DNA of 64,000 nt from the NCBI RefSeq assembly GCF_001443605.1, contig NZ_CP013118.1, forward strand, positions 1,147,075 to 1,211,074, read 5' to 3'. Shown in pieces: positions 2,984 to 63,726 of the stretch. Each line of letters starts with the position of its first letter. The stretch's first letter is position 1. The position numbers and the translations under genes are program-made. This DNA comes from Salinivirga cyanobacteriivorans (GTDB lineage: Bacteria > Bacteroidota > Bacteroidia > Bacteroidales > Salinivirgaceae). Under the pieces are notes generated by a model that had not been told where the DNA came from, searched no databases, and saw only the letters and a list, made by a program, of their open reading frames with translations.

Positions 2984-3010
2984 AATCAAAAATCTTCTTT
3001 TCGTTCAACA

Positions 3011-3706
3011 TCAAGGGTTAAAGGTAATGGCAGCTTTTGCTTCGTTAAACATCAAATCTACCCACAGTTTATACATTGCTCCTGAAGGGTGCAGCCCATC
3101 CTCTGCAATTAATTCGGGTTGTTCGGCAGCCTGCCGGGAAATGGGCGTCACATTAATAAAGCTTACCCCTTTCTCCATGGTTTCCTCCATTTTAGCAGCA
3201 TTGTAAGCATCTATTTCCTGTGCAATTTGCTCCCGGTCGCGCCCCTCGGCAAATGGTGTTACGCCCCAATCGGGAATCGAAATCACAACAACCTTTTCAG
3301 GATGCCCACCAGCAAACGCAATGGCTTGCTCAAGCAGTTCCACATATTCTTCCCGAAAATTTTCTACAGAGCGCCCGCGATACTGATTATTTACGCCGAT
3401 GAGCAAAGTCACCAGATCGTAGGGACCTGTGATATTTGCTTCTTCAATACCTGCAGCCAGCTCATCGGTAGTCCAACCGGTGGTTGCAATAATTTCAGGG
3501 TCATTAACATCTAACCAATAAACACGCAGTGTATCAACCAATTGCACAGGAAAACGCTTCTGCTCACTCACACGCTCACCAATTGTGTACGAGTCGCCTA
3601 AAGCAAGGTATTTCATAGTTTGCATATCAGTTTGATCTGTTTCAGAGTTACATCCGTGTTGCCATGAAACCAAAATAATGAGTAAAAAAAAGCCCAAATG
3701 TTTCAT
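3011..3706 (-). CDS. SGNH/GDSL-family hydrolase lipoprotein
   Basis: 231 residues. The N-terminus is a lipoprotein signal (hydrophobic FFLLIILVSW, then QHGC with the acylated cysteine near residue 19), so the protein should be anchored at the cell envelope. The SGNH catalytic blocks are visible: block I ALGDSYTIGE with the nucleophile Ser, block III LLIGVNNQYRG with the oxyanion Asn, and block V EDGLHPSG with the Asp and His. Such enzymes are esterases, lipases or deacetylases; the substrate cannot be read from sequence. It starts just upstream of kynU (28 bases between the frames), possibly on the same transcript. Confidence 0.85.
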   Translation of the reverse strand: MKHLGFFLLIILVSWQHGCNSETDQTDMQTMKYLALGDSYTIGERVSEQKRFPVQLVDTLRVYWLDVNDPEIIATTGWTTDELAAGIEEANITGPYDLVTLLIGVNNQYRGRSVENFREEYVELLEQAIAFAGGHPEKVVVISIPDWGVTPFAEGRDREQIAQEIDAYNAAKMEETMEKGVSFINVTPISRQAAEQPELIAEDGLHPSGAMYKLWVDLMFNEAKAAITFNP

Positions 3707-3786
3707 TGTTGCCAGAATTTAATTTGGTGTTAAAATAACAATAAAAAAGGATTGATTAAAATGTTTTATATTCATTAATCATAGCT

Positions 3787-3804
3787 TCCCGGCTAAAGCC
3801 TAAC
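3787..3804. repeat. Left stump of an interrupted REP-like unit
   Basis: The bases CCCGGCTAAAGCC here match the left arm of the REP-like units at 9908 and 10092. The expected continuation (CAGGTTTTGAGAG) is not found here but at 9206, just right of the second IS copy. The simplest reading is that the IS-glycosyltransferase-IS block was inserted into one REP unit. Confidence 0.6.
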
Positions 3805-5386
3805 AGGTGGGGTGTTTAAGATTTACACATTCGGAAAAAAATCTTCACCCCACTTTTTTGAGAATTGATTTTCTACGCTGCATATTAGTTAGGCCAATAT
3901 TTTTTTCGCTCCACTTATGGACATCCTTGTTTCTGACTTTTTCAAATGATATTTTTATTTCATCTATGCCCAATTGACAAGTAAACGCGGCCATGGTTAG
4001 AGAGAGGTTTGTTATACCTATCATTGGGTTATTGTTTATGTAGTTTTTATATTTTCCAAAAGCAGATTCTATTATGTCTGAAGTACAGATTACTTTTCGC
4101 TGCTTGGGGATAAGGGCTTTAAGTTCATTTAGGTAATTTAAGATATGGTTTTTCAATTTGTCTATTCTAGAGCTTTCAATGGTGATTTCTTTTAATATTG
4201 TTTTCACTTTCTTGATATTGCTTTTCGACAGTTGTGTTTTTAGCAATGCTTTTATTTTAAGCAAAATACCATTAACCTGAAATAATTCTTGTATTAGTTG
4301 TTCGTGGTTCTTGACCCACAATAGTTCTTTGTATTCCCTCTTTTGTTTTTCTTGATTTTTCAGATAGTTTAACACCTTCATTCCCCAGTCAGATATTATG
4401 TCAAGATTCATAAATCTTGAATGAAACCGTTGGTTAGGAGGTAGAATGTGAGATACATTGGTTAAGGATAACGCACCTCTCATCTTTGCCATTTTCGTGA
4501 TGTAGGATTGAAATTCCTCTTCCGGTTTATATATCTCCTTTAGAAACCAGGCAAGTTTATGAGTTATGTCATAAACATGTGGTGTTTTCATAAGTCGTAA
4601 GGCTTTCTTTATGGCATTCCCACCATCGGCTACAGCGTATAATATTTTCCCGTACTCTTGTTCTATTATTCGCAGTTGTTTTTCAATTAACTCTCCTGTC
4701 CATCTATCACCACTAATAATAGCCAATGGAGTTAAATCTTGATAGTTTAAAGCTCTTTTAAAATCTACGCTCTTATTTCTTATTCCATAAACGACAAGTA
4801 GTTTATCATGCCCAAATTCAACACTTTCATCAAGAATAACGATCCAATCATTTGTCTTTTTTGTTGTTTTCTTTTCCAACTGATAGTATCCAACTTTCTT
4901 CACCCAGGAAGAAATAGTAGAGTGAGAAGGGGTTCTCATTGAAATACCCATATAGAGAGCATAAATTGACATGATTTTCTGAATCGCTCTGAATCCGGTA
5001 GAAGTTTGTAGTTTGATTGCTAAAGCTAGTTGGATTACTGCACAATCGAAAGAGTGATTTTTAGGGTTGTTTATTCTATTATTTGCTTTAGTATATCCTC
5101 GGTCTTTTTTTTAAGCAATTCTATTTCTTTCTTTAGCAAGTCAGCTACATCTCGTTTAACCTTGTATTTTTCTTTCCAACCATCTCTGCTATTGGTAAGC
5201 TCTTTTATCCTTTTTTTCAGCTCTTTATTTTCGGCATTGCGCTGAACAGACTTTGATTTCCAGTACAATGCATTATAGTCAATTTTATCCATGTTTTTAT
5301 TTGCAATATACAATAAAATCAATAACTGACAAAATTAATGGGGTGCATTTTAAATGGATAAATAAAGCATTTTATACACCCCACCT
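3805..5386 (-). mobile_element. Insertion sequence, copy 1 (unidentified DDE family)
   Basis: 1582-bp element with inverted ends AGGTGGGGTGT (left) and ACACCCCACCT (right). It encodes a transposase on the minus strand. A second copy lies at 7623-9204 in the same orientation, and all translated frames of the two are identical, so the duplication is recent. The outer flanks at this copy are CCTAAC and GTTAGG, which mirror each other and may extend the inverted repeat; I see no clear target duplication. I cannot name the IS family with confidence. Confidence 0.85.
3845..5292 (-). CDS. IS transposase OrfAB, -1 frameshift fusion (copy 1)
   Basis: Two overlapping frames. OrfA (5292 down to 5071, 73 residues from the ATG) is a lysine/glutamate-rich coiled coil. 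Near its end it contains eight A residues followed by G (plus-strand 5105-5112 are T), the classic slippery heptamer A_AAA_AAG. A -1 slip there enters a frame open from 5104 to the stop at 3845 and gives a protein of about 482 residues. The OrfB part has a DDE-type arrangement: VILDESVEFG, AVADGGNAIKKA and TSDIIESAFGKY. An ATG-initiated OrfB of 375 residues (4972-3845) is the alternative. The frameshift is inferred from sequence; the family is unassigned. Confidence 0.8.
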
Positions 5387-5406
5387 GTTAGGACTAAGTC
5401 TCACCT

Positions 5407-5439
5407 ACCCGGGGCGTCGCCTGGAGCGACACCCCGGGT
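5407..5439. repeat. REP-like hairpin
   Basis: Near-perfect inverted repeat: ACCCGGGG, one mismatch, GTCGC, loop CTGGA, GCGAC, one mismatch, CCCCGGGT. The layout (long arm, single mismatch, short arm, loop ending TGGA) is the same as that of the hairpin at 63741-63773 beside cas1, although the stem bases differ. It lies inside the IS-flanked block, upstream of the glycosyltransferase. Confidence 0.65.
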
Positions 5440-5513
5440 TGCCTTCTCTTATGCGCTGGCAAAAAGAAAGATTAACCATTCTAACCAGAATATGCATTCA
5501 AAAAACATTTTAC

Positions 5514-5521
5514 TATTTTTG
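5514..5521 (+). promoter_or_regulatory. Candidate -7 box TATTTTTG
   Basis: Matches the Bacteroidetes -7 consensus TAnnTTTG exactly and lies 16 bases before the ATG at 5538, so the transcript would have a very short leader. No convincing -33 TTTG is seen at the usual distance. Confidence 0.45.
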
Positions 5522-5537
5522 CACAAAATACTGTTCA

Positions 5538-7610
5538 ATGAAAAAACACACGCCCACAATAATTATTATCCTGCTTTTTATAGTTATCGCCATTATTTAC
5601 AATTACCACAACATTGTTTTCAAAAAACCGCAATCGGTGCATAAATGGCGGCAATCAGATTGTGCCTCTATTACATTGAATTACTATCAGGATGGCATGG
5701 ATTTTTTCGAGCCCGAAACACATAACCTGACTTCTGACCAGGGAACAACCGGAAAATGCAGCACAAGCGAAATGCCACTATTATACTACACTGTTGCAGG
5801 GATGTATCATGTTTTCGGATATCATGATTTTATTTACAGAATCTTCAATACACTTATTTTTTTTCTGGGACTGTTTTACCTTTTCAAATTATCAAATTAT
5901 TTATTGAGAAACACATTTTGGTCGGCTGCCATTGTACTATTGTTTTTCACCTCGCCTGTGCTGGCGTACTACGGCAATAACTATTTGACCAACACCACTG
6001 CACTGGCCGTTTCTTTTATTGGCTGGTACCAATTTATCAGATATATTTTTGAAAAAAAGAAACAATTACTCATCAAAGCGCTTATTCTCTTCTTCCTCGC
6101 AGCTTCCTTAAAAATAACAGCGCTATTTAGCTTATTTGCCATTGTCGGCGTCTTTATTTTCGATCATATCCCATTTCTAAAAGGTACAAACAAAGCAAAA
6201 AATATACAGCATCCGATTTTATTCGTAATTGGCTCAATTGCAGCTGGGGGGGTAGTTGCCGGATGGGCTGCCTATGCCAGGTATTACAACGAATTACATA
6301 ATTGCACCTACTTTTCAACCACAATTTTCCCAATATGGAATTACGATAGCGAAGGTATCAACCACATTTTATCAAAAGTGCGAAAATTATGGCTTTACCA
6401 ATATTATCACGCATCAATGCATGCTTTTCTGACCCTCGCTGCTGTTTTTATTATCGCTTTTTACAAAAAAAACCTGAGGGTATTTAACCTGGCAATTCTT
6501 TTCATTCTGATTGAAATTGTAATTTTTGTATTGTTGCAATTTATGACCTTCGCCGATCATGATTATTATACCATCGGGATGTTCATTTTACCTGCCCTGA
6601 TTTTACTGAGCAGTATTTTAGTTTTCAAAAAACGGTTTCCCAAACTATTTAATCACGTTATATTTAAAACGGCCATAGCCCTGCTCATTGGATTTAATGT
6701 CTATTACGCCCATACACAAGTCACGGAGCGATATGAAGGCTGGTACAATAAAACCAGATACAAACAGGATATCTACTCCATTCAACCCTATTTGGATAGC
6801 ATTGGGGTAACACAAAACGACACCATCATTTCCATACCCGATGGCAGTAACGCTTCCCTCTACATTATGAACCGCAAAGGCTGGACACAATACACCGATG
6901 CGCGTTTTAACCGCGGAGAAAAAATCCGATACAACCAGGATAGTGCGGGCATAGCAAAATCAATTAAAAACGGTGCCCGATACATGATAGTTCAGGGCAT
7001 TGAACAGCTTTACCTGCAACCCTTTATTCAACCTTTTGCAACCGAACTCGTCGGTAAATACAAACGGGTTTTAATTTTTGATTTAAAACAGGATCAACCT
7101 AATTTTGATGCCTCCAAACGAATTGTAAGTTATCGATACTTCACTAATGCTGAATACCTTACAATAAACAAAAAACAATTCTTGAACCCGACCGACAGTA
7201 CGTTGTATGCAAATGGCCAGACCCAATCAAACGACGCTTCGTACTCAGGAAATTACAGTATCAAACTAAACGCCGGGAACCCTTATGGTGCAACCATTAC
7301 AATTGACAGTATATCCACAGGTGAAAGCTTTTCGATAAGTGCCTGGCGCAAAAATAATGAAAAAGACAAAGGATGTATTGTAGCCTCAAGTACCCCTGAA
7401 AAATTCTACAAAAAAGGAACACGCGTTGTGGATACAACGGCTAACGGCTGGGAAAAAATTCAACTTGAGTTTTTTATTCCTGAAAATATAAACGGCCAGG
7501 AGCTCAAAATTTATCTGTACAATCCAAACGAAAAAAGCGTTTTTTTCGACGATTTTGAGATCATACGTTATAAGTCTGTATTTAGATTATTTGAGATAAA
7601 AGAGAAATGA
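5538..7610 (+). CDS. GT-C fold membrane glycosyltransferase (PMT/ArnT-like)
   Basis: 690 residues from the ATG at 5538; the frame stays open upstream into the IS, but those residues are not protein-like. After one N-terminal membrane segment, the loop HKWRQSDCASITLNYYQ carries the Arg-Gln-Asp typical of GT39/PMT-like enzymes, which use polyprenyl-phosphate sugars. About ten further hydrophobic segments follow to roughly residue 390. The C-terminal part is soluble; its last 120 residues look like a beta-sandwich with carbohydrate-binding character (SYSGNYSIKLNAG, VFFDDFEI). It is the only gene between two identical ISs and may have been carried by them. The sugar and acceptor are unknown. Confidence 0.75.
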   Translation: MKKHTPTIIIILLFIVIAIIYNYHNIVFKKPQSVHKWRQSDCASITLNYYQDGMDFFEPETHNLTSDQGTTGKCSTSEMPLLYYTVAGMYHVFGYHDFIYRIFNTLIFFLGLFYLFKLSNYLLRNTFWSAAIVLLFFTSPVLAYYGNNYLTNTTALAVSFIGWYQFIRYIFEKKKQLLIKALILFFLAASLKITALFSLFAIVGVFIFDHIPFLKGTNKAKNIQHPILFVIGSIAAGGVVAGWAAYARYYNELHNCTYFSTTIFPIWNYDSEGINHILSKVRKLWLYQYYHASMHAFLTLAAVFIIAFYKKNLRVFNLAILFILIEIVIFVLLQFMTFADHDYYTIGMFILPALILLSSILVFKKRFPKLFNHVIFKTAIALLIGFNVYYAHTQVTERYEGWYNKTRYKQDIYSIQPYLDSIGVTQNDTIISIPDGSNASLYIMNRKGWTQYTDARFNRGEKIRYNQDSAGIAKSIKNGARYMIVQGIEQLYLQPFIQPFATELVGKYKRVLIFDLKQDQPNFDASKRIVSYRYFTNAEYLTINKKQFLNPTDSTLYANGQTQSNDASYSGNYSIKLNAGNPYGATITIDSISTGESFSISAWRKNNEKDKGCIVASSTPEKFYKKGTRVVDTTANGWEKIQLEFFIPENINGQELKIYLYNPNEKSVFFDDFEIIRYKSVFRLFEIKEK

Positions 7611-7622
7611 CGGATACCTAAC

Positions 7623-9204
7623 AGGTGGGGTGTTTAAGATTTACACATTCGGAAAAAAATCTTCACCCCACTTTTTTGAGAATTGATTTTCTACGCTGCA
7701 TATTAGTTAGGCCAATATTTTTTTCGCTCCACTTATGGACATCCTTGTTTCTGACTTTTTCAAATGATATTTTTATTTCATCTATGCCCAATTGACAAGT
7801 AAACGCGGCCATGGTTAGAGAGAGGTTTGTTATACCTATCATTGGGTTATTGTTTATGTAGTTTTTATATTTTCCAAAAGCAGATTCTATTATGTCTGAA
7901 GTACAGATTACTTTTCGCTGCTTGGGGATAAGGGCTTTAAGTTCATTTAGGTAATTTAAGATATGGTTTTTCAATTTGTCTATTCTAGAGCTTTCAATGG
8001 TGATTTCTTTTAATATTGTTTTCACTTTCTTGATATTGCTTTTCGACAGTTGTGTTTTTAGCAATGCTTTTATTTTAAGCAAAATACCATTAACCTGAAA
8101 TAATTCTTGTATTAGTTGTTCGTGGTTCTTGACCCACAATAGTTCTTTGTATTCCCTCTTTTGTTTTTCTTGATTTTTCAGATAGTTTAACACCTTCATT
8201 CCCCAGTCAGATATTATGTCAAGATTCATAAATCTTGAATGAAACCGTTGGTTAGGAGGTAGAATGTGAGATACATTGGTTAAGGATAACGCACCTCTCA
8301 TCTTTGCCATTTTCGTGATGTAGGATTGAAATTCCTCTTCCGGTTTATATATCTCCTTTAGAAACCAGGCAAGTTTATGAGTTATGTCATAAACATGTGG
8401 TGTTTTCATAAGTCGTAAGGCTTTCTTTATGGCATTCCCACCATCGGCTACAGCGTATAATATTTTCCCGTACTCTTGTTCTATTATTCGCAGTTGTTTT
8501 TCAATTAACTCTCCTGTCCATCTATCACCACTAATAATAGCCAATGGAGTTAAATCTTGATAGTTTAAAGCTCTTTTAAAATCTACGCTCTTATTTCTTA
8601 TTCCATAAACGACAAGTAGTTTATCATGCCCAAATTCAACACTTTCATCAAGAATAACGATCCAATCATTTGTCTTTTTTGTTGTTTTCTTTTCCAACTG
8701 ATAGTATCCAACTTTCTTCACCCAGGAAGAAATAGTAGAGTGAGAAGGGGTTCTCATTGAAATACCCATATAGAGAGCATAAATTGACATGATTTTCTGA
8801 ATCGCTCTGAATCCGGTAGAAGTTTGTAGTTTGATTGCTAAAGCTAGTTGGATTACTGCACAATCGAAAGAGTGATTTTTAGGGTTGTTTATTCTATTAT
8901 TTGCTTTAGTATATCCTCGGTCTTTTTTTTAAGCAATTCTATTTCTTTCTTTAGCAAGTCAGCTACATCTCGTTTAACCTTGTATTTTTCTTTCCAACCA
9001 TCTCTGCTATTGGTAAGCTCTTTTATCCTTTTTTTCAGCTCTTTATTTTCGGCATTGCGCTGAACAGACTTTGATTTCCAGTACAATGCATTATAGTCAA
9101 TTTTATCCATGTTTTTATTTGCAATATACAATAAAATCAATAACTGACAAAATTAATGGGGTGCATTTTAAATGGATAAATAAAGCATTTTATACACCCC
9201 ACCT
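7623..9204 (-). mobile_element. Insertion sequence, copy 2
   Basis: Second copy of the 1582-bp element, same orientation, offset exactly 3818 bases from copy 1, with the same AGGTGGGGTGT / ACACCCCACCT ends. Its left flank is CCTAAC, as for copy 1, but its right flank is TTACAGG, which continues as a REP-like unit. With copy 1 it forms a composite-transposon arrangement around the glycosyltransferase gene. Confidence 0.85.
7663..9110 (-). CDS. IS transposase OrfAB, -1 frameshift fusion (copy 2)
   Basis: Same protein as the copy at 3845-5292: OrfA from 9110 to 8889, slippery A8G at plus-strand 8923-8930, then the OrfB frame to 7663. The translated sequences of the two copies are identical, including the DDE-type motifs VILDESVEFG, AVADGGNAIKKA and TSDIIESAFGKY. 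Nothing suggests that this copy is damaged, so it could be active and able to mobilise the block between the copies. The IS family is unassigned. Confidence 0.8.
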
Positions 9205-9351
9205 TACAGGTTTTGAGAGTTGCTGAAGTCCACGCCATGAATGGCGTGGTAAGTTATACCTTAAGCAAGGTTTACTTACAGCGTTTGAGAAAATAACTTG
9301 CGCCGCCATTCATGGCGGTGATAGATAAGAATCCATTGAGTTTTCCGGCTT
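9205..9351. repeat. REP-like twin-hairpin unit A (right part)
   Basis: Contains two hairpins: CCACGCCAT-GA-ATGGCGTGG near 9230-9250 and CCGCCAT-TC-ATGGCGG near 9303-9318. It ends with GGCTTTAGCC. Full units at 9908 and 10092 start with the mirror word GGCTAAAGCC, so unit A lacks its left arm; the matching arm is at 3787-3804 on the other side of the IS block. Confidence 0.65.
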
Positions 9352-9483
9352 TAGCCAGGAATCTTACTAGCTCTTAGCCTGTCTATTTGGTATTTTAGTA
9401 TTGATAATCCAAGAGGCACTTGTAAAGGACATTACTTTTTGTATAAAAAACATATAACTTTGAAAAAAACAAAAACACAAGTC

Positions 9484-9918
9484 ATGGCTTATGTAAAAAT
9501 CTGGGTTCATATTGTATAAACTACCAAAAACAGAGAACCTGTATTAACTAACCCCAAGAGAAAATTATTATTTTCTCATATGAGAGAAAACGCCAGATTA
9601 AAAGGGATATATCTTGATTTTATTGGTGGTTATTTGGAACACATTCATTGCCTGATTAGCCTAAACTCGGATCAGACTATAGCGAAAACCGTTCAATTAA
9701 TAAAAGGTGAATCAGCATATTGGTTTAATCGTAATCTAAAAGAAGGGAAAAAACTTGAGTGGCAAGATGAATATTTTGCTGTATCGGTGAGTGAATCTGT
9801 TGTAAGTACTGTAAGGTCATACATAAAAAATCAAGAGCAACATCATAAGAAAAAGACCTTTCAGGAAGAATATGATGAAATTATGCAAAAATTTGGTTTT
9901 TCTAAGTTTCCCGGCTAA
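9484..9918 (+). pseudogene. REP-associated tyrosine transposase (Y1, IS200-like), interrupted
   Basis: Starting at the ATG at 9484 the reading is MAYVKIWVHIV, then a TAA stop (9517-9519), then TTKNREPVLTNPKRK and on in the same frame to 9918. Y1 transposases of this family normally read through here, usually with Trp or Phe, and are about 145-150 residues, which fits 9484-9918 exactly. The HUH motif is EHIHCLIS and the likely catalytic Tyr lies in VRSYIKNQEQH. The stop makes it a pseudogene unless translation restarts at the internal ATG (9580, 112 residues). It sits between palindromic REP-like units, the usual setting for a RAYT. Confidence 0.8.
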
Positions 9919-10079
9919 AGCCTTGCAGGTTTTGAGAGTTGCTGAAGTCCACGCCATGAATGGCGTGGTAAGTTATATCTTAAGCAAGGTTTAACTACAG
10001 AAATTAAGGATCTAACTTGTACCGCCATTCATGGCGGTGACAAGAAAGGCGCTTGCTAAATACGGCTTTAGCCCGGAAT
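9908..10079. repeat. REP-like twin-hairpin unit B
   Basis: Complete unit directly after the transposase relic, starting CCCGGCTAAAGCC and ending GGCTTTAGCCCGG, so it is itself bounded by inverted arms. Inside are CCACGCCAT-GA-ATGGCGTGG (about 9949-9968) and CCGCCAT-TC-ATGGCGG (about 10022-10037), separated by about 53 bases. The first bases overlap the end of the transposase frame. Confidence 0.7.
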
Positions 10080-10091
10080 ATTTTATTATAC

Positions 10092-10263
10092 AAAATACAG
10101 CTACCCGGCTAAAGCTTTGCAGGTTTTGGTTTCTGTCGAAGTCCACGGGGCGTGGTAAGTTATATCTTAAGCAAACCTTAACTACAGAAAACAAGGATCT
10201 AACTTGCGCCGCCATTCATGGCGGTGACAAGAAAGGCGCTTGCTAAATAGGGCTTTAGCCCGG
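10092..10263. repeat. REP-like twin-hairpin unit C
   Basis: Second complete unit with the same plan as unit B: CCCGGCTAAAGC at the left, GGCTTTAGCCCGG at the right. The left hairpin has decayed to CCACGGGGCGTGG, while the right hairpin CCGCCAT-TC-ATGGCGG is intact (about 10209-10224). A truncated fourth unit follows at 10289-10352. Confidence 0.7.
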
Positions 10264-10288
10264 AATGCTTTTTTATACAAAATACAGT

Positions 10289-10352
10289 TACCCAGCTAAA
10301 GCCTTGCAGGTTTTCGGGGTAGTCGAAGCCCAGGACATGAATGGCGTGGTAA
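10289..10352. repeat. REP-like unit D, truncated
   Basis: Starts ACCCAGCTAAAGCCTTGCAGG and continues to a degraded left hairpin (ACATGAATGGCGTGG); the right half is missing. Confidence 0.5.
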
Positions 10353-10541
10353 CCCAGGTAAATCATGCTTAAAAAAAACTAGCCTTTTAGGGCTTGTCAA
10401 AATGCCAAAGCAATTCACAAACCCAAAAATTCATTACCAACCGGGGAAACAAGCTTTACAATGTGCCATGCAGGCGTGAAAAATCTTAAACAATCCACCC
10501 TGGCACATGTTATACTTTATGAACACCAAAAAATTAAAAAA

Positions 10542-10988
10542 ATGAATATGTATTTAAAAATCTTAGCACTAATAACCGTAGTATTATTTGCAACAGCATG
10601 CAATAATGGTCAAAACACCAAGGAAAAGAAGGAAGCTGACAAAGAGCAGGCAATCAAAGAAGATATGACTGCATTGAAAGATGAATTCAAAGGTGTAGGC
10701 GATGCCATTGGTGACCTGTTTAAAAACGAGCAGGATAACTTTAAGGAATCTGCTAATGAAGTATTAAGTGATATTGAGCGGAAAATTGATAAAACAGAAG
10801 CGAAGTTGAGCGACAATGAGAAAGACTCAAAATTAAAAAATCAGCTCATGAAGCTTCGTGAAAAATCAGATGAGCTTGAGTCGAAAATCAATGAAATGGA
10901 TGATTCCGCAGAGGAACAATGGGCTCAAACCAAAGATGATGTTGAGAAAAAGTTCAATGAACTTAAAAAAGAAATTGAAAACCTATAG
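10542..10988 (+). CDS. Small coiled-coil lipoprotein, unknown function
   Basis: 148 residues from the ATG at 10542; the frame is open further upstream, but the lipoprotein signal fixes this start. The N-terminus is MNMYLKILALITVVLFATAC, a clear lipobox ending at Cys20. The remainder is charged (Lys, Glu, Asp) and almost all predicted helix, with heptad-like spacing that suggests a long coiled coil exposed at the envelope. I do not recognise a named family. It is followed by a hairpin terminator at 11033-11063 and stands alone between the REP cluster and the hydroxyproline module. Confidence 0.7.
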   Translation: MNMYLKILALITVVLFATACNNGQNTKEKKEADKEQAIKEDMTALKDEFKGVGDAIGDLFKNEQDNFKESANEVLSDIERKIDKTEAKLSDNEKDSKLKNQLMKLREKSDELESKINEMDDSAEEQWAQTKDDVEKKFNELKKEIENL

Positions 10989-11032
10989 ACTTAAGTATGA
11001 TAATTAATTAAGTCACACAACTTACATTGCAA

Positions 11033-55337: not shown

Positions 55338-58300
55338 GGATTCTATTGCTTTCAGATTGTTCTTTGATATATTTGTGTCAGCATTGCAGTTTAAAATTGT
55401 ATAGCCCACTAGGTTGTGAATTGCTTTCAGATTGTTCTTTGATATATTTGTGTCAGCTTTTTGACTTGAATTATAATATTATAATACGTTGTGAATTGCT
55501 TTCAGATTGTTCTTTGATATATTTGTGTCAGCCAGAGCTACCAAATCACTACCGTTGTATCTGTTGTGAATTGCTTTCAGATTGTTCTTTGATATATTTG
55601 TGTCAGCTATTCTTGGATTTTTCTCTTCCAAGACCACGTTGTGAATTGCTTTCAGATTGTTCTTTGATATATTTGTGTCAGCAAAGTGGGTAAAAAAAGC
55701 CCGAAGGCTTAGGTTGTGAATTGCTTTCAGATTGTTCTTTGATATATTTGTGTCAGCTATGGTTTTAAGGTTATTCCAAATTGATTGTTGTGAATTGCTT
55801 TCAGATTGTTCTTTGATATATTTGTGTCAGCTCAGGAGAAGTATACCATTTTCCAGTATCAGTTGTGAATTGCTTTCAGATTGTTCTTTGATATATTTGT
55901 GTCAGCCATAACCTTTTTTTTGCTTTAAAAGTTCTTGTTGTGAATTGCTTTCAGATTGTTCTTTGATATATTTGTGTCAGCAGGATGGTGCGGTTGATTG
56001 AGCCTAGACAGTTGTGAATTGCTTTCAGATTGTTCTTTGATATACTTGTGTCAGCTGCTACCCGATTTTTACACAAGGCGATGGTGTTGTGAATTGCTTT
56101 CAGAACGTTCTTTGATATATTTGTGTCAGCGAACCCTACTGTACGCATCGAAGCGGCTAGGTTGTGAATTGCTTTCAGATTGTTCTTTGATATATTTGTG
56201 TCAGCCACAAAAATATTTCGACCGTTTCCCGGCGCGTTGTGAATTGCTTTCAGATTGTTCTTTGATATATTTGTGTCAGCCCATTTTCTTCATAAGCCTT
56301 CAGCTTGCGGGTTGTGAATTGCTTTCAGATTGTTCTTTGATATATTTGTGTCAGCCGAGGCGGTTGGCAGTTGGTTTATATATGGGTTGTGAATTGCTTT
56401 CAGATTGTTCTTTGATATATTTGTGTCAGCAGGAGATGCTCGTCGCTGAAAAACGCCACCGTTGTGAATTGCTTTCAGATTGTTCTTTGATATATTTGTG
56501 TCAGCTACCGGTGGATGTTTCAGGCGTGAAGATTAGTTGTGAATTGCTTTCAGATTGTTCTTTGATATATTTGTGTCAGCTACTACTTCAAACATTTACA
56601 GGTATACCCCGTTGTGAATTGCTTTCAGATTGTTCTTTGATATATTTGTGTCAGCTTAGTAGCTTCAACTCCTTTTCATTCGCCAGTTGTGAATTGCTTT
56701 CAGATTGTTCTTTGATATATTTGTGTCAGCATAAATTATATTAATATTGTACTTAAATGAGTTGTGAATTGCTTTCAGATTGTTCTTTGATATATTTGTG
56801 TCAGCGTTGTGGGGGTGGATATAGACCCACAATCTGTTGTGAATTGCTTTCAGATTGTTCTTTGATATATTTGTGTCAGCTTTGCACTATAATCAGTTTT
56901 CACAACCGACGTTGTGAATTGCTTTCAGATTGTTCTTTGATATATTTGTGTCAGCGTGCGGCTATTGCGGCATTAAGTGATGCGGGTTGTGAATTGCTTT
57001 CAGATTGTTCTTTGATATATTTGTGTCAGCAAAGGTCGCTTTTTTTTTATAAACGAATTGGTTGTGAATTGCTTTCAGATTGTTCTTTGATATATTTGTG
57101 TCAGCAGTTCAAAACTGAAACCGGTAAACAGAGCAGTTGTGAATTGCTTTCAGATTGTTCTTTGATATATTTGTGTCAGCATTGATTCAATTTGCCACAG
57201 ATGCCTCAAGGTTGTGAATTGCTTTCAGATTGTTTTTTGATATATTTGTGTCAGCAACAAAGGAAATAACCTTTCATTGTTTCCGGTTGTGAATTGCTTT
57301 CAGATTGTTCTTTGATATATTTGTGTCAGCAACCACAATTAAAAACTCAACTTTTTAAGGGTTGTGAATTGCTTTCAGATTGTTCTTTGATATATTTGTG
57401 TCAGCCCTGTAATTGATAGCCCTGACAGGCCGTTAGTTGTGAATTGCTTTCAGATTGTTCTTTGATATATTTGTGTCAGCTTAAACCTACACATCCATTT
57501 AGGAATGTAGTTGTGAATTGCTTTCAGATTGTTCTTTGATATATTTGTGTCAGCGAACCTATATTTTATGTGTAGTATCATATTGTTGTGAATTGCTTTC
57601 AGATTGTTCTTTGATATATTTGTGTCAGCGGAAGATGGTGAAATTGAATTTGATAGTGAGTTGTGAATTGCTTTCAGATTGTTCTTTGATATATTTGTGT
57701 CAGCATGTGACAGGCACTACCTCTGATTCAAACAGTTGTGAATTGCTTTCAGATTGTTCTTTGATATATTTGTGTCAGCCGATTCCGGGTTAAGCAAAAC
57801 GCCTAAAGAGTTGTGAATTGCTTTCAGATTGTTCTTTGATATATTTGTGTCAGCCAACAACCGAAATGCAACAGGGCACAATACGTTGTGAATTGCTTTC
57901 AGATTGTTCTTTGATATATTTGTGTCAGCTTTACCAATCGACTTATTTTAAATCGTCTTGTTGTGAATTGCTTTCAGATTGTTCTTTGATATATTTGTGT
58001 CAGCGATAGGTATCATTATTAAGGAGCTAAATCAGTTGTGAATTGCTTTCAGATTGTTCTTTGATATATTTGTGTCAGCAAAGGTCGCTTTTTTTTTATA
58101 AACGAATTGGTTGTGAATTGCTTTCAGATTGTTCTTTGATATATTTGTGTCAGCATGCCATGGAACTGCTCGCAGACCGAACAGGTTGTGAATTGCTTTC
58201 AGATTGTTCTTTGATATATTTGTGTCAGCCGAATCTATATTCTATGTGTAGTATCATGTGTTGTGAATTGCTTTCAGATTGTTCTTTGATATATTTGTGT

Positions 58301-61300
58301 CAGCCTTCTTCTTCGTAAACAGTTTCACCAGTTTGTTGTGAATTGCTTTCAGATTGTTCTTTGATATATTTGTGTCAGCTGCAGGTGTGATTCTTTCTGT
58401 TGCTGCAAAGTTGTGAATTGCTTTCAGATTGTTCTTTGATATATTTGTGTCAGCTAAAAATCAAATATTATGAAAACTTTAGAAGTTGTGAATTGCTTTC
58501 AGATTGTTCTTTGATATATTTGTGTCAGCAAGGAATAATCATTTTGTATTGAACTTAGTGTTGTGAATTGCTTTCAGATTGTTCTTTGATATATTTGTGT
58601 CAGCATAATTATACAAATAATTAATGCTAATTGTGTTGTGAATTGCTTTCAGATTGTTCTTTGATATATTTGTGTCAGCGTAACGGGACAGCGGTAAGAA
58701 ATCGTGCCGGTTGTGAATTGCTTTCAGATTGTTCTTTGATATATTTGTGTCAGCCTGTACCACCAGTATATCCGATATCAGCGTGTTGTGAATTGCTTTC
58801 AGATTGTTCTTTGATATATTTGTGTCAGCCTGTACCACCAGTATATCCGATATCAGCGTGTTGTGAATTGCTTTCAGATTGTTCTTTGATATATTTGTGT
58901 CAGCATATTTGCATATTAAATAAATATTATATATGTTGTGAATTGCTTTCAGATTGTTCTTTGATATATTTGTGTCAGCAGTAATTATTTTTATTTTTTC
59001 TACGTTGTGGTTGTGAATTGCTTTCAGATTGTTCTTTGATATATTTGTGTCAGCTGTCCGGAGTGCGGATGTATGGTTGCTGCGTTGTGAATTGCTTTCA
59101 GATTGTTCTTTGATATATTTGTGTCAGCACAAGTTGATCCAAACACCCAGGAAGTAATGTTGTGAATTGCTTTCAGATTGTTCTTTGATATATTTGTGTC
59201 AGCATACGTATGTTTGCCTGTACGATATCATCTGTTGTGAATTGCTTTCAGATTGTTCTTTGATATATTTGTGTCAGCAATATAAATACTCACTGGATAA
59301 GTGGTATAGTTGTGAATTGCTTTCAGATTGTTCTTTGATATATTTGTGTCAGCCTTGGAAGCATAATAAATAAACCCTGCATTGTTGTGAATTGCTTTCA
59401 GATTGTTCTTTGATATATTTGTGTCAGCCTCCATTTCGACCAACACCTCTTTACTCATGTTGTGAATTGCTTTCAGATTGTTCTTTGATATATTTGTGTC
59501 AGCATGATTTATAATTATAAACATAAATTTGATGTTGTGAATTGCTTTCAGATTGTTCTTTGATATATTTGTGTCAGCGATGATCTAGGTGATATTTTAG
59601 ACGAATTGTTGTGAATTGCTTTCAGATTGTTCTTTGATATATTTGTGTCAGCGGGATGACCCCTATACAGATGGCCTAACATGTTGTGAATTGCTTTCAG
59701 ATTGTTCTTTGATATATTTGTGTCAGCGGATATGTCAATTTCATCAATGTAATCCATGTTGTGAATTGCTTTCAGATTGTTCTTTGATATATTTGTGTCA
59801 GCTTATCGGGATTCCTCCCAACTCACCACCATGTTGTGAATTGCTTTCAGATTGTTCTTTGATATATTTGTGTCAGCTGATTTTCCTGATCTTGCTGACC
59901 CTTGACTGTTGTGAATTGCTTTCAGATTGTTCTTTGATATATTTGTGTCAGCATTAATGCCCATTGCCCTTAAATCTTCATAGTTGTGAATTGCTTTCAG
60001 ATTGTTCTTTGATATATTTGTGTCAGCGAATTTGAAGAAAATGAAATTATTAATCAAGTTGTGAATTGCTTTCAGATTGTTCTTTGATATATTTGTGTCA
60101 GCAATAGGTGGTAAACCACATAGCGCTGGTGGGTTGTGAATTGCTTTCAGATTGTTCTTTGATATATTTGTGTCAGCATATAGTGTTCAAATTCATAAAG
60201 GGGACGAGTTGTGAATTGCTTTCAGATTGTTCTTTGATATATTTGTGTCAGCCCTTAGATGGCAAGACCTATCAGAGCTATCGTTGTGAATTGCTTTCAG
60301 ATTGTTCTTTGATATATTTGTGTCAGCAACATCTATATTAGTGAAACAAAACAACAGGTTGTGAATTGCTTTCAGATTGTTCTTTGATATATTTGTGTCA
60401 GCGTCTTTGAACTTCTTCGAATTGCTTCAGATGTTGTGAATTGCTTTCAGATTGTTCTTTGATATATTTGTGTCAGCATTCCGGGCAATACTTCGTGTTT
60501 GTCGCAAGTTGTGAATTGCTTTCAGATTGTTCTTTGATATATTTGTGTCAGCCCCTTGCATGTCTGGCATATTGATATCATAGTTGTGAATTGCTTTCAG
60601 ATTGTTCTTTGATATATTTGTGTCAGCATTATCACCATCTTGATAAGCCAGCACGCGGTTGTGAATTGCTTTCAGATTGTTCTTTGATATATTTGTGTCA
60701 GCAATCCTAAAAAAGTAGTCACCAATGCGGATGTTGTGAATTGCTTTCAGATTGTTCTTTGATATATTTGTGTCAGCCCCGCTTTATTAGCGGGCATTGA
60801 GTTGAGTGTTGTGAATTGCTTTCAGATTGTTCTTTGATATATTTGTGTCAGCGATAAACACTTAATATGTTACACTCTTGATGTTGTGAATTGCTTTCAG
60901 ATTGTTCTTTGATATATTTGTGTCAGCTGGAGAATAGGCAGATGGGGGTAATTCACCGTTGTGAATTGCTTTCAGATTGTTCTTTGATATATTTGTGTCA
61001 GCTCCTAAAACTTTAAATAAAATGAAACCAGAGTTGTGAATTGCTTTCAGATTGTTCTTTGATATATTTGTGTCAGCCGTTGTAATGACAGAATTTCCCC
61101 AATCAATGTTGTGAATTGCTTTCAGATTGTTCTTTGATATATTTGTGTCAGCTTATTATACAGAAGCACAGGCCGATGATTTGTTGTGAATTGCTTTCAG
61201 ATTGTTCTTTGATATATTTGTGTCAGCCATTATTTCCTTTATTTTATTCCAGTCACCGTTGTGAATTGCTTTCAGATTGTTCTTTGATATATTTGTGTCA

Positions 61301-62276
61301 GCACGTAACTTTCAAATCCGGCACCTGCATCAGTTGTGAATTGCTTTCAGATTGTTCTTTGATATATTTGTGTCAGCTATTTACAGCCGATGCCGAAAAC
61401 TTCAATGGTTGTGAATTGCTTTCAGATTGTTCTTTGATATATTTGTGTCAGCAAACCAATTCTGTATATAATTTCCCTGTAGGTTGTGAATTGCTTTCAG
61501 ATTGTTCTTTGATATATTTGTGTCAGCGATTAAAATGGAGTACGCCAATGCTCCCTGTTGTGAATTGCTTTCAGATTGTTCTTTGATATATTTGTGTCAG
61601 CCGATTCCATCGAATACCGTTCACGTCCAAAGTTGTGAATTGCTTTCAGATTGTTCTTTGATATATTTGTGTCAGCTAGCTCGTATTGTTCAGTGCTTCT
61701 TTTCGTGTTGTGAATTGCTTTCAGATTGTTCTTTGATATATTTGTGTCAGCTGCACTGTTTGGAGCAATGAGCGCTAAGGTGTTGTGAATTGCTTTCAGA
61801 TTGTTCTTTGATATATTTGTGTCAGCGACGCAGAAATAATGCCCGGCGACATTGATGTTGTGAATTGCTTTCAGATTGTTCTTTGATATATTTGTGTCAG
61901 CGCGGATAGTTTTAATGATACCATCGAAATTGTTGTGAATTGCTTTCAGATTGTTCTTTGATATATTTGTGTCAGCGTTGATACTCATACAGCCATAATA
62001 TTTCAAGTTGTGAATTGCTTTCAGATTGTTCTTTGATATATTTGTGTCAGCAGAGAAACATTTGGAATATGTAAATGAATGGTTGTGAATTGCTTTCAGA
62101 TTGTTCTTTGATATATTTGTGTCAGCGCGGATAGTTTTAATGATACCATCGAAATTGTTGTGAATTGCTTTCAGATTGTTCTTTGATATATTTGTGTCAG
62201 CAAGTGATGCTGGTATACAAGGCAGTAGGGCGTTGTGAATTGCTTTCAGATTGTTCTTTGATATATTTGTGTCAGC
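55338..62276 (+). CRISPR. CRISPR array, 93 repeats, type II-C-like
   Basis: 93 repeats of 45 bases (starting GTTGTGAATTGC, ending TTTGTGTCAGC) and 92 spacers: 86 of 30 and 6 of 29 bases. The GTTGTGAATTGCTTTC start resembles type II-C repeats of Bacteroides and the Neisseria repeat (GTTGTAG..CCTTTC), so the guide reads left to right on the plus strand with repeat bases after the spacer. Repeat 1 is degenerate at positions 2-7 only. Other variants: repeat 10 (T35C), 11 (TT20-21AC), 26 (C25T). Identical spacers: 23 and 37, 46 and 47, 88 and 91; spacers 30 and 39 are near-identical. The periodic 25-codon open frames on both strands are not genes. cas2 and cas1 follow on the opposite strand. Confidence 0.98.
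55345..55375 (+). promoter_or_regulatory. Promoter-like pair inside each CRISPR repeat (repeat 1 shown)
   Basis: Repeat positions 8-11 are ATTG and positions 31-38 are TATATTTG, 19 bases apart. This matches the Bacteroidetes promoter (-33 TTTG, -7 TAnnTTTG, spacing about 19-21) with one mismatch. Transcription would start near the end of the repeat and run through the next spacer. The pair is intact even in the degenerate first repeat; of the variants I saw, only repeat 10 damages the -7 box. Experimental use is inferred from the parallel with Neisseria type II-C arrays. Confidence 0.6.
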
Positions 62277-62829: not shown

Positions 62830-63726
62830 CTACAGTTCGGGATACGACAACTTCCGGGTTATGCCTTCAAAGCATTTTCGCAATGAAGCAGTTGTTCGTT
62901 GCGCGCCCACTAAAAGCGGACTGTATTCATCATCAATTTTAATATCTACAGTTGCAATGCTTAATAATTCTGCTTTGTGAGCTGTGGTTAATTCTTCTAT
63001 TTCAGCCTCTTTTGAAACAATTGATAATACAATTTGATCTACATACGGTCGAAAGGGCTCCATTATATCATCTGCCAAACAATATTGATTATATTTATTT
63101 CTGTGATGAATACCAAGTCCGGTGAAAAGTCCACTACCCACCAGCGAACGGGCAATGATACCGCGTAAAATGGCATAACCGTAATTCAATAAGTTGTTTG
63201 GCGGTTCTCCGTGCCGATGCCGGCGAAATGAGGGAAACTGATCAAAAATTTCTGCCCAGTAATAGGCTGCTGCACGCCCTTCATAATTATCCGGGTCGCC
63301 ACTTTTCACCTGTGAAGCCCAATAAAGCATATTTTCTACCTCAACACCCAAGCCATCGAGCATTGCTGCCTGATTGCGAATTTTAGCCACAACTGTTTGC
63401 TGCCACAAATTTTTGCGAAGTGGTTGTGATGATTCCAGTTGAGCATAAAACTTTTCAGTAAACTCCGTATGTTTCGCCATGGGCAACATTAGCCCTTCTG
63501 GCATATGCTTCGCATCGCAGGAAATGACAGCCGTATTATTGTTTACCAATGCAGCTAACAACCCCTGGGTAATTGTAATTTGCTGGTTTTCGAGCACCAC
63601 AATACCAATATCCTCAATGGGAACGTTCCGGGTTTCCTTTTCCTCATCGGGAAACTCAACAATCATTTGTCCTGATTTTTTCTTCAAATAACAGGGGTTT
63701 CCAAAATAGAGTGTTCGTTTTATCAT
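62830..63726 (-). CDS. cas1: CRISPR-associated endonuclease Cas1 (type II)
   Basis: 298 residues. Cas1 integrase with the catalytic residues in place: Glu in YEGRAAAYYWAEIF near residue 148, His in GLGIHHRNKYNQ near residue 205, and Asp in LADDIMEPFRPYVDQ near residue 220. An N-terminal beta domain begins IKRTLYFGNPCYLKKK. Length and sequence fit type II-C. Usually cas9 precedes cas1 in Bacteroidetes loci; here the sequence just upstream is a REP-like hairpin and a transposase end, so cas9 must lie beyond the window or be missing. Confidence 0.97.
   Translation of the reverse strand: MIKRTLYFGNPCYLKKKSGQMIVEFPDEEKETRNVPIEDIGIVVLENQQITITQGLLAALVNNNTAVISCDAKHMPEGLMLPMAKHTEFTEKFYAQLESSQPLRKNLWQQTVVAKIRNQAAMLDGLGVEVENMLYWASQVKSGDPDNYEGRAAAYYWAEIFDQFPSFRRHRHGEPPNNLLNYGYAILRGIIARSLVGSGLFTGLGIHHRNKYNQYCLADDIMEPFRPYVDQIVLSIVSKEAEIEELTTAHKAELLSIATVDIKIDDEYSPLLVGAQRTTASLRKCFEGITRKLSYPEL

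Follow-up and report, generated by a model that had tools for sequence, protein, structure and literature searches.

A probable composite transposon with a native glycosyltransferase gene as its passenger, lying within a REP-like unit of Salinivirga cyanobacteriivorans

Two identical insertion sequences enclose a single gene

The 64-kb window examined here, meaning the whole stretch of DNA analysed (positions 1,147,075-1,211,074 of the forward strand of NZ_CP013118.1), belongs to the 4.81-Mb single-contig genome of Salinivirga cyanobacteriivorans and includes two copies of an insertion sequence (IS) that bracket one gene for a predicted glycosyltransferase (GT), the whole block interrupting a unit that resembles a repetitive extragenic palindromic (REP) element. 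The two copies lie in direct orientation and are identical across 3799-5386 versus 7617-9204; a longer comparison brings in three differences, all within the outer flank, and across the whole genome these two copies are the only matches to the IS. Comparison with relatives gives an IS core of 1576 bp, with copy 1 at 3808-5383 and copy 2, identical to it, at 7626-9201, both on the minus strand. The initial annotation had recognized two identical ISs of the same orientation, which is upheld, but had given their length as 1582 bp, which is not. Between them lies a single gene on the plus strand (5538-7610, 690 aa), again as first described, so that one IS in two copies brackets another gene, the arrangement of a composite transposon.

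The terminal inverted repeats of the IS read TGGGGTGT(A/T)TAA(A/G)AT and agree at 11 of their first 12 bases. In copy 1, ORFB (3845-4972, minus strand) encodes 375 aa from its ATG within an open frame of 421 aa and carries the DDE transposase domain, while ORFA (5071-5292, minus strand) encodes 73 aa that look coiled-coil-like by eye; the two open reading frames (ORFs) overlap, and an A8G run at 5104-5112 within the overlap is the likely shift site. In copy 2, ORFB (7663-8790) and ORFA (8889-9110) follow on the minus strand at the copy 1 coordinates plus 3818.

The outer flanks rebuild one REP-like unit

REP-like unit matches, full or partial, number 12 across the genome, and four of them are at this locus. 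The plus-strand sequence CCCGGCTAAAG has three occurrences in the window, at 3788, 9910 and 10104, and each of them opens a unit. The left end of the interrupted unit, TTCCCGGCTAAAG (3786-3798, plus strand), aligns with the units at 9908, 10102 and 2.504 Mb, and its remainder lies beyond the second IS copy at 9211-9360 (plus strand), ending at about 9360, slightly past the 9351 proposed at first. When the left part (to 3807) is rejoined to the right part (9211-9375), the product aligns along its whole length with two units: identities, mismatches and gap positions number 150, 33 and 11 for the one at 9901-10085 and 161, 29 and 24 for the one at 2.504 Mb. These alignments bear out the central observation of the initial annotation, that the two outer flanks together rebuild one REP-like unit; of the whole units that it had cited for comparison, the one at 9908 is confirmed as intact (9908-10080, plus strand), and the other is placed at 10102 rather than 10092 (10102-10267, plus strand), where both ends are present and the interior is a few bases shorter. 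An IS200-like Y1 transposase gene lies between REP-like units at 9484-9918; codon 12 is an in-frame stop, which leaves a shorter open frame, from 9580, that matches Y1_Tnp (2.3e-17). An Rfam scan of 3000-11000 found nothing.

As the flanks alone permit several readings of the IS ends, these were set with the help of transposase relatives, which were found in 12 of 393 genomes of the order, in 3 of 395 genomes of a phylum sample (the window genome being counted in both) and in 15 plasmid records (Persicobacter, Nostoc, Calothrix, Gloeothece and Candidatus Thiodictyon). The ends were analysed at 32 of 35 relative loci, leaving out the fragments L050, L052 and L104. Clear inverted ends (TAGGGTGTT or similar) together with perfect 9-bp duplications are present at 15 of the 32 loci, representing 14 distinct insertions. 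The 17 loci lacking a 9-bp duplication comprise 13 that are fragments, lie on cut contigs, have other ends or give no match, together with three Persicobacter copies (L055, L056 and L109), and L058, for which no ends were found; L045, one of the 13, matches at 9/9 positions but was not counted, its length of 668 bp being implausible. A 3-bp duplication, CCT, had also been considered for the IS and was dropped, as the relatives show 9 bp.

By analogy with these relatives, the IS in the window would be 1576 bp long, start with TGGGGTGT and be bordered by 9-bp flanks. On the plus strand, these are the left outer flank CCTAACAGG (3799-3807), a presumed target duplication whose 9-bp length is taken from the perfect duplications of the relatives; the inner flank of copy 1, CCTGTTAGG (5384-5392); the inner flank of copy 2, CCTAACAGG (7617-7625), directly after the GT stop codon; and the right outer flank CCTTACAGG (9202-9210), which the 2.504-Mb unit also has. 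Copy 1 is thus flanked by CCTAACAGG/CCTGTTAGG and copy 2 by CCTAACAGG/CCTTACAGG, and the outer pair, CCTAACAGG/CCTTACAGG, is identical at 8/9 positions. Because the right flank equals the sequence of the 2.504-Mb unit, the closest of the units, a single base of the left outer flank has probably been altered, either through mutation or through conversion involving copy 2.

The glycosyltransferase appears to be a native gene

The passenger is best described as a GT-C-like glycosyltransferase. At E<=0.01, PMT_2 is matched by 13 of 14 aligned members of the GT family, the window protein included (best 6e-12), although the latter, at E 0.0054 and 17.4 bits, falls below the curated cut-off of 26.1; the GT-C label, also given in the initial annotation, draws on these matches across the aligned members and is tentative for the window copy. 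A search against PDB sequences gave no match at E<=0.1, and a structure model made without an alignment is poor (predicted local distance difference test score, pLDDT, 41.1). The leader of the gene contains a G+C-rich hairpin, ACCCGGGGCGTCGCC...GACACCCCGGGTT, at 5408-5441; none is seen in the leader of the congener.

In the window genome the GT has a single match, the one in the window, and a congener (G004), in whose genome no IS match is found, carries an orthologue at a different locus, downstream of homologues of a 684-aa protein, a phosphofructokinase, a FAD-dependent oxidoreductase (DAO) and an ATP-cone/Mrr gene. M49 peptidase, a name considered for the neighbour of 684 aa, finds no match in Pfam and is not used. 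The ATP-cone locus of the window genome lies at 1.395 Mb, 243 kb from the GT, and contains no GT. Nearby, at 1.394 Mb (L023, 5681-6980), two direct copies encode an identical 150-aa Y1_Tnp protein (2.3e-22, one scanned) and sit between the phosphofructokinase and ATP-cone genes, where G004 has the FAD-dependent oxidoreductase.

Between the window genome and G004, protein identity is 79.8% for the GT (372 residues), compared with 79.1% for the ATP-cone protein, 81.5% for the phosphofructokinase and 83.6% for the 684-aa protein. As the GT has diverged from its congener counterpart to the same degree as these three neighbour genes, the comparison points to a native, vertically inherited gene that has moved within the lineage rather than a foreign one, the direction of the move being presumptive. 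No GT match occurs in a second congener (G005) or in two of three other family genomes, and the third (G001) has two weak ones (best E 5e-9, 26% identity); more widely, 130 of 393 genomes of the order contain relatives at E<=0.001, many of which match in the C-terminal region only.

The two genomes also resemble each other upstream of the GT. In G004, the gene is preceded by the palindrome CCTAACAGGTTTTGAAAACCTGTTAGG followed by TCTAAGT, and copy 1 has the inner flank CCTGTTAGGACTAAGT, in which the arm is identical and the bases after it almost so; CCTGTTAGG is the right arm of this congener palindrome. The inner flank downstream of the GT, CCTAACAGG, may represent the left arm of a second palindrome of this kind. 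With a variable centre and exact arms, the palindrome occurs at one place in the window genome, at eight in G004 and at none in G005, G001, G002 or G003; with two central N and up to two mismatches (<=2), it is absent from the window genome.

The transposase represents a family named in neither Pfam nor NCBIfam

Residues D48, D116, D135-x2-H138 and E302 of ORFB are invariant in 12/12 aligned members, and D48, D116 and E302 form a DDE triad like that of the Mutator superfamily. The distance from the second D to D-x2-H is 19 residues in eight rows, that of the window among them, and 24 in four. The ORFA/ORFB frame offset is -1 in the window IS and in L038, L039, L041, L106 and L108, and +1 or -2 in L043, L057 and L059, with a single long frame in place of two ORFs in L054, L060 and L100; given these varied offsets, slippage may be at work rather than a strict -1 frameshift.

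The window ORFB matches no Pfam or NCBIfam family at E<=1 (one of the two scans being run with the query minus its first residue). Among nine relatives scanned, transposase models match three, all far below cut-off: L054 (IS5_2 6e-8, IS6 6.5e-6, DDE_Tnp_1_5 0.066), L060 (IS6 4e-4) and L039 (ISH6 8e-5). No curated model, whether for IS256, ISH6, IS5, IS6 or another family, is thus matched above its cut-off, and the family is named in neither Pfam nor NCBIfam, the two catalogues compared. Of the 15 plasmid records, 13 annotate the transposase relative as hypothetical protein, and in the other two the matching stretch bears no feature. Among the papers listed in a limited look through titles and the openings of abstracts, without ISfinder, none describes the block or an IS family that combines such ends with 9-bp duplications.

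A structure model of the transposase (pLDDT 44.7, from two sequences) shows an order of strands and helices that fits RNase H at low confidence, and its top Foldseek match is the Hermes transposase (E 4.9e-5, template modelling score, TM, 0.25); together these lend weak support to an RNase H-like fold. Searches of PDB sequences returned weak, unrelated-looking matches only. Searches of the five other family genomes gave no match to the IS, and a contig scan with the transposase gave a single weak relative (L025). No relative was found by a phage search or, with a single-protein query, among viral contigs; an alignment query found two viral contigs that apparently represent one insertion. These IMG/VR contigs (L100 and L101) carry an IS of the same family with shared flanks and the 9-bp duplication TCACTATGT.

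Target choice

All four window flanks fit CCTNNNAGG, as do 13 9-mers in the window, these four included. Among relatives within the order, CCN5GG is present at 4 of 10 sites with a recognizable end (L038, L049, L043 and L039), compared with 29 of 14,603 flanking positions (0.2%; binomial P 3e-9), a value to be read with the motif having been fixed after the flanks were seen and with 8 of the 10 sites having been read from one end only. The ten sites come from seven genomes, several sharing one genome, and L040, L044, L047 and L048, which have no comparable ends, were left out of the count. More distant relatives show CCN5GG at 0 of 12 sites. The ISs of the order relatives seem to prefer CCN5GG sites, which occur in REP-like palindromes.

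A family-wide rule of insertion into hairpins, hinted at by L041, L054 and L112, was dropped, as it was not borne out on the 14 insertions with 9-bp duplications: the stem score gives a median percentile of 0.55 and a borderline Fisher P of 0.049 (4/14 at <=0.1), and the fold energy a median of 0.35 and a non-significant P of 0.16 (2/14 at <=0.1). Two individual loci have repeats of their own. In G055, an IS relative with 44% identity (L039, 1-1900) is enclosed by long inverted repeats and bordered on either side by GTCCCGTTAGGG-like units, and in G015 a more distant relative (L047, 960-2960) has the palindrome AACTTTG(C/G)CAAAGTT on each side.

A broader generalization can be offered tentatively and is, on balance, doubtful: that a DDE IS family related to the Mutator superfamily, for which no curated model exists, is spread over Bacteroidota, Cyanobacteria and a gammaproteobacterium, and that its Bacteroidota branch targets the CCTNNNAGG cores of short palindromic repeats, so that genes situated between such repeats are bracketed time and again and relocated within the chromosome.

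How the block arose

The block is probably a composite transposon that moved a native GT gene within the lineage into a REP-like unit. Entry as one IS-bounded unit is most likely, because the REP-like unit is rebuilt by the outer flanks, these flanks agree at 8/9 positions and 9-bp duplications without a mismatch are seen in relatives of the IS. In the proposed sequence of events, the IS, which is not found in the relatives searched, would have used sites of the CCTNACAGG type to enter short palindromic repeats on both sides of the GT, the upstream one matched in the congener and the downstream one presumed. The DDE transposase, probably made by slippage on the A8G run, would act on the TGGGGTGT ends, as its own sequence and those of its relatives suggest. 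The IS-GT-IS unit would then have entered a CCTTACAGG site in the REP-like unit beside the IS200-type gene, duplicating nine bases, and the vertically inherited GT would thereby have changed its place within the lineage.

Several observations weigh against this account. One of the nine bases is not shared by the outer flanks, and the hybrid flanks on each single IS are also expected from recombination between copies. In G004, the GT is cut by the contig end after residue 372 and the genome is 85% complete. In the window genome, no scar is seen by eye at the ATP-cone locus. An empty site is seen in none of the five family relatives. The initial annotation had called for related genomes to be checked for an uninterrupted unit at this site and had named the GT at this place without ISs as the contrary finding; the adjacent GDSL gene is found in 0/5 family relatives, so that none of them offers an empty site. 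Its proposal that the 5.4-kb block came in as a single entry is supported by the rebuilt unit, the 8/9 flanks and the other GT locus in the congener, with the proviso that transposition is not separable from recombination between copies, because each IS alone has hybrid flanks. The change in cell-surface sugars that it had suggested would be a putative consequence of such a move.

The alternative that survives best, although it is unlikely, is that a solitary IS stood in the REP-like unit while two other copies flanked the GT, and that homologous recombination, for example with a GT-IS circle, built the block. It would account for the hybrid 9-bp flanks on each IS, which Tobes and Pareja ascribe to recombination between copies for another IS (PMC1525189), and for the full-length identity of the copies; IS256 and ISLre2, of the Mutator superfamily, are reported to form circles (PMC3942029). 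Yet it requires three insertions as well as recombination, the genome holds no solitary IS copy, and a composite transposon yields the same flanks more simply. It is improbable that the GT had its place among REP-like repeats here from the start and that two ISs inserted independently, carrying nothing: REP-like units do stand in a row at the locus and the IS is seemingly attracted to CCN5GG sites, but the outer halves rebuild a single unit, the DNA from copy 1 to the GT resembles the leader of the congener's GT and not the remainder of a REP-like unit, and the congener has its GT at another locus. Acquisition of the composite from another species by horizontal transfer is more improbable still, for although the IS is A+T richer (33% G+C versus 39% for the window) and was not found in five relatives, the GT has 37.7% G+C and a congener divergence like that of three neighbour genes, and 72,556 plasmids contain zero GT matches at E<=0.001.

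If the composite transposon is accepted, a GT of genome-typical divergence has been carried to a new place, and its position and flanking ISs alone would wrongly imply a foreign origin. Composites of this kind would also be easily overlooked by routine annotation, as the IS family is labelled hypothetical protein in the plasmid records examined, and the palindromic repeats of Bacteroidota are suggested as landing sites.

Other features of the window

At the far end of the window, 55345-62276 holds a large array resembling clustered regularly interspaced short palindromic repeats (CRISPR), with about 92 units of 75 bp and a repeat of about 46 bp (GTTGTGAATTGCTTTCAGATTG...). It is adjoined by cas1 at 62830-63726 on the minus strand (Cas_Cas1 match 3.4e-29).

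Comparison with known systems

Composite (compound) transposons include Tn4001, which is bounded by IS256. The block shares with elements of this type the identical direct ISs around a passenger gene and, presumably, a short outer duplication, and differs in having a native chromosomal GT as passenger, an IS of another family and an outer duplication that agrees at 8/9 positions.

Copy 1 lies between the inverted arms CCTAACAGG/CCTGTTAGG with no direct duplication and in this respect resembles the inverted-repeat-replacing insertion of IS1272 (PMC5678879); in contrast, relatives of the window IS make 9-bp duplications, and copy 1 is explained by hybrid flanks. The IS1202 family, long placed in the not-yet-classified group of ISfinder, is described as having TGT/ACA ends and duplications of 3-5, >15 or 0 bp (PMC10132070). 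A size of about 1.5 kb, a DDE transposase and a target preference are common to both, but membership is set aside by that description, since the ends here are TGG or TAG/TAA and the duplications 9 bp.

The Mutator superfamily (p-MULT) is characterized (PMC3942029) by a DDE triad, a C/D(2)H motif placed 11-19 residues beyond the second D, a helical stretch before the E, direct repeats of 8-9 bp and inverted repeats of 18-39 bp with a conserved terminal cytosine, one group having a two-ORF frameshift. The window IS has D-D-E, D(2)H, a helical stretch before the E and a putative two-ORF frameshift, and its relatives agree in their perfect 9-bp repeats at 14 distinct insertions. It departs from that description in its terminal base, which is T/A here and in all 14 resolved insertions, in a D2-E spacing of 185-261 and in a D(2)H spacing of 24 in 4/12 rows; of the superfamily's family models, ISH6 alone gave a hit, a weak one in a single relative and well under the cut-off. 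With its D(2)H motif and 9-bp duplications, this DDE family recalls the Mutator superfamily, in which membership is not claimed because the terminal cytosine is absent and four rows have a D(2)H spacing of 24.

ISs that target REP elements, among them ISPsy8, ISPa11, ISPpu9/10, ISRm22 and IS1397, and drawn from the families IS3, IS110, IS4, IS256 and IS5 (PMC1525189), offer a further comparison. The window IS differs in matching no curated model above its cut-off and in the three distinct sites deduced for it, all in one genome. It resembles them in the interruption of a repeated palindromic element and in its hybrid flanks, which there, too, have been ascribed to recombination.

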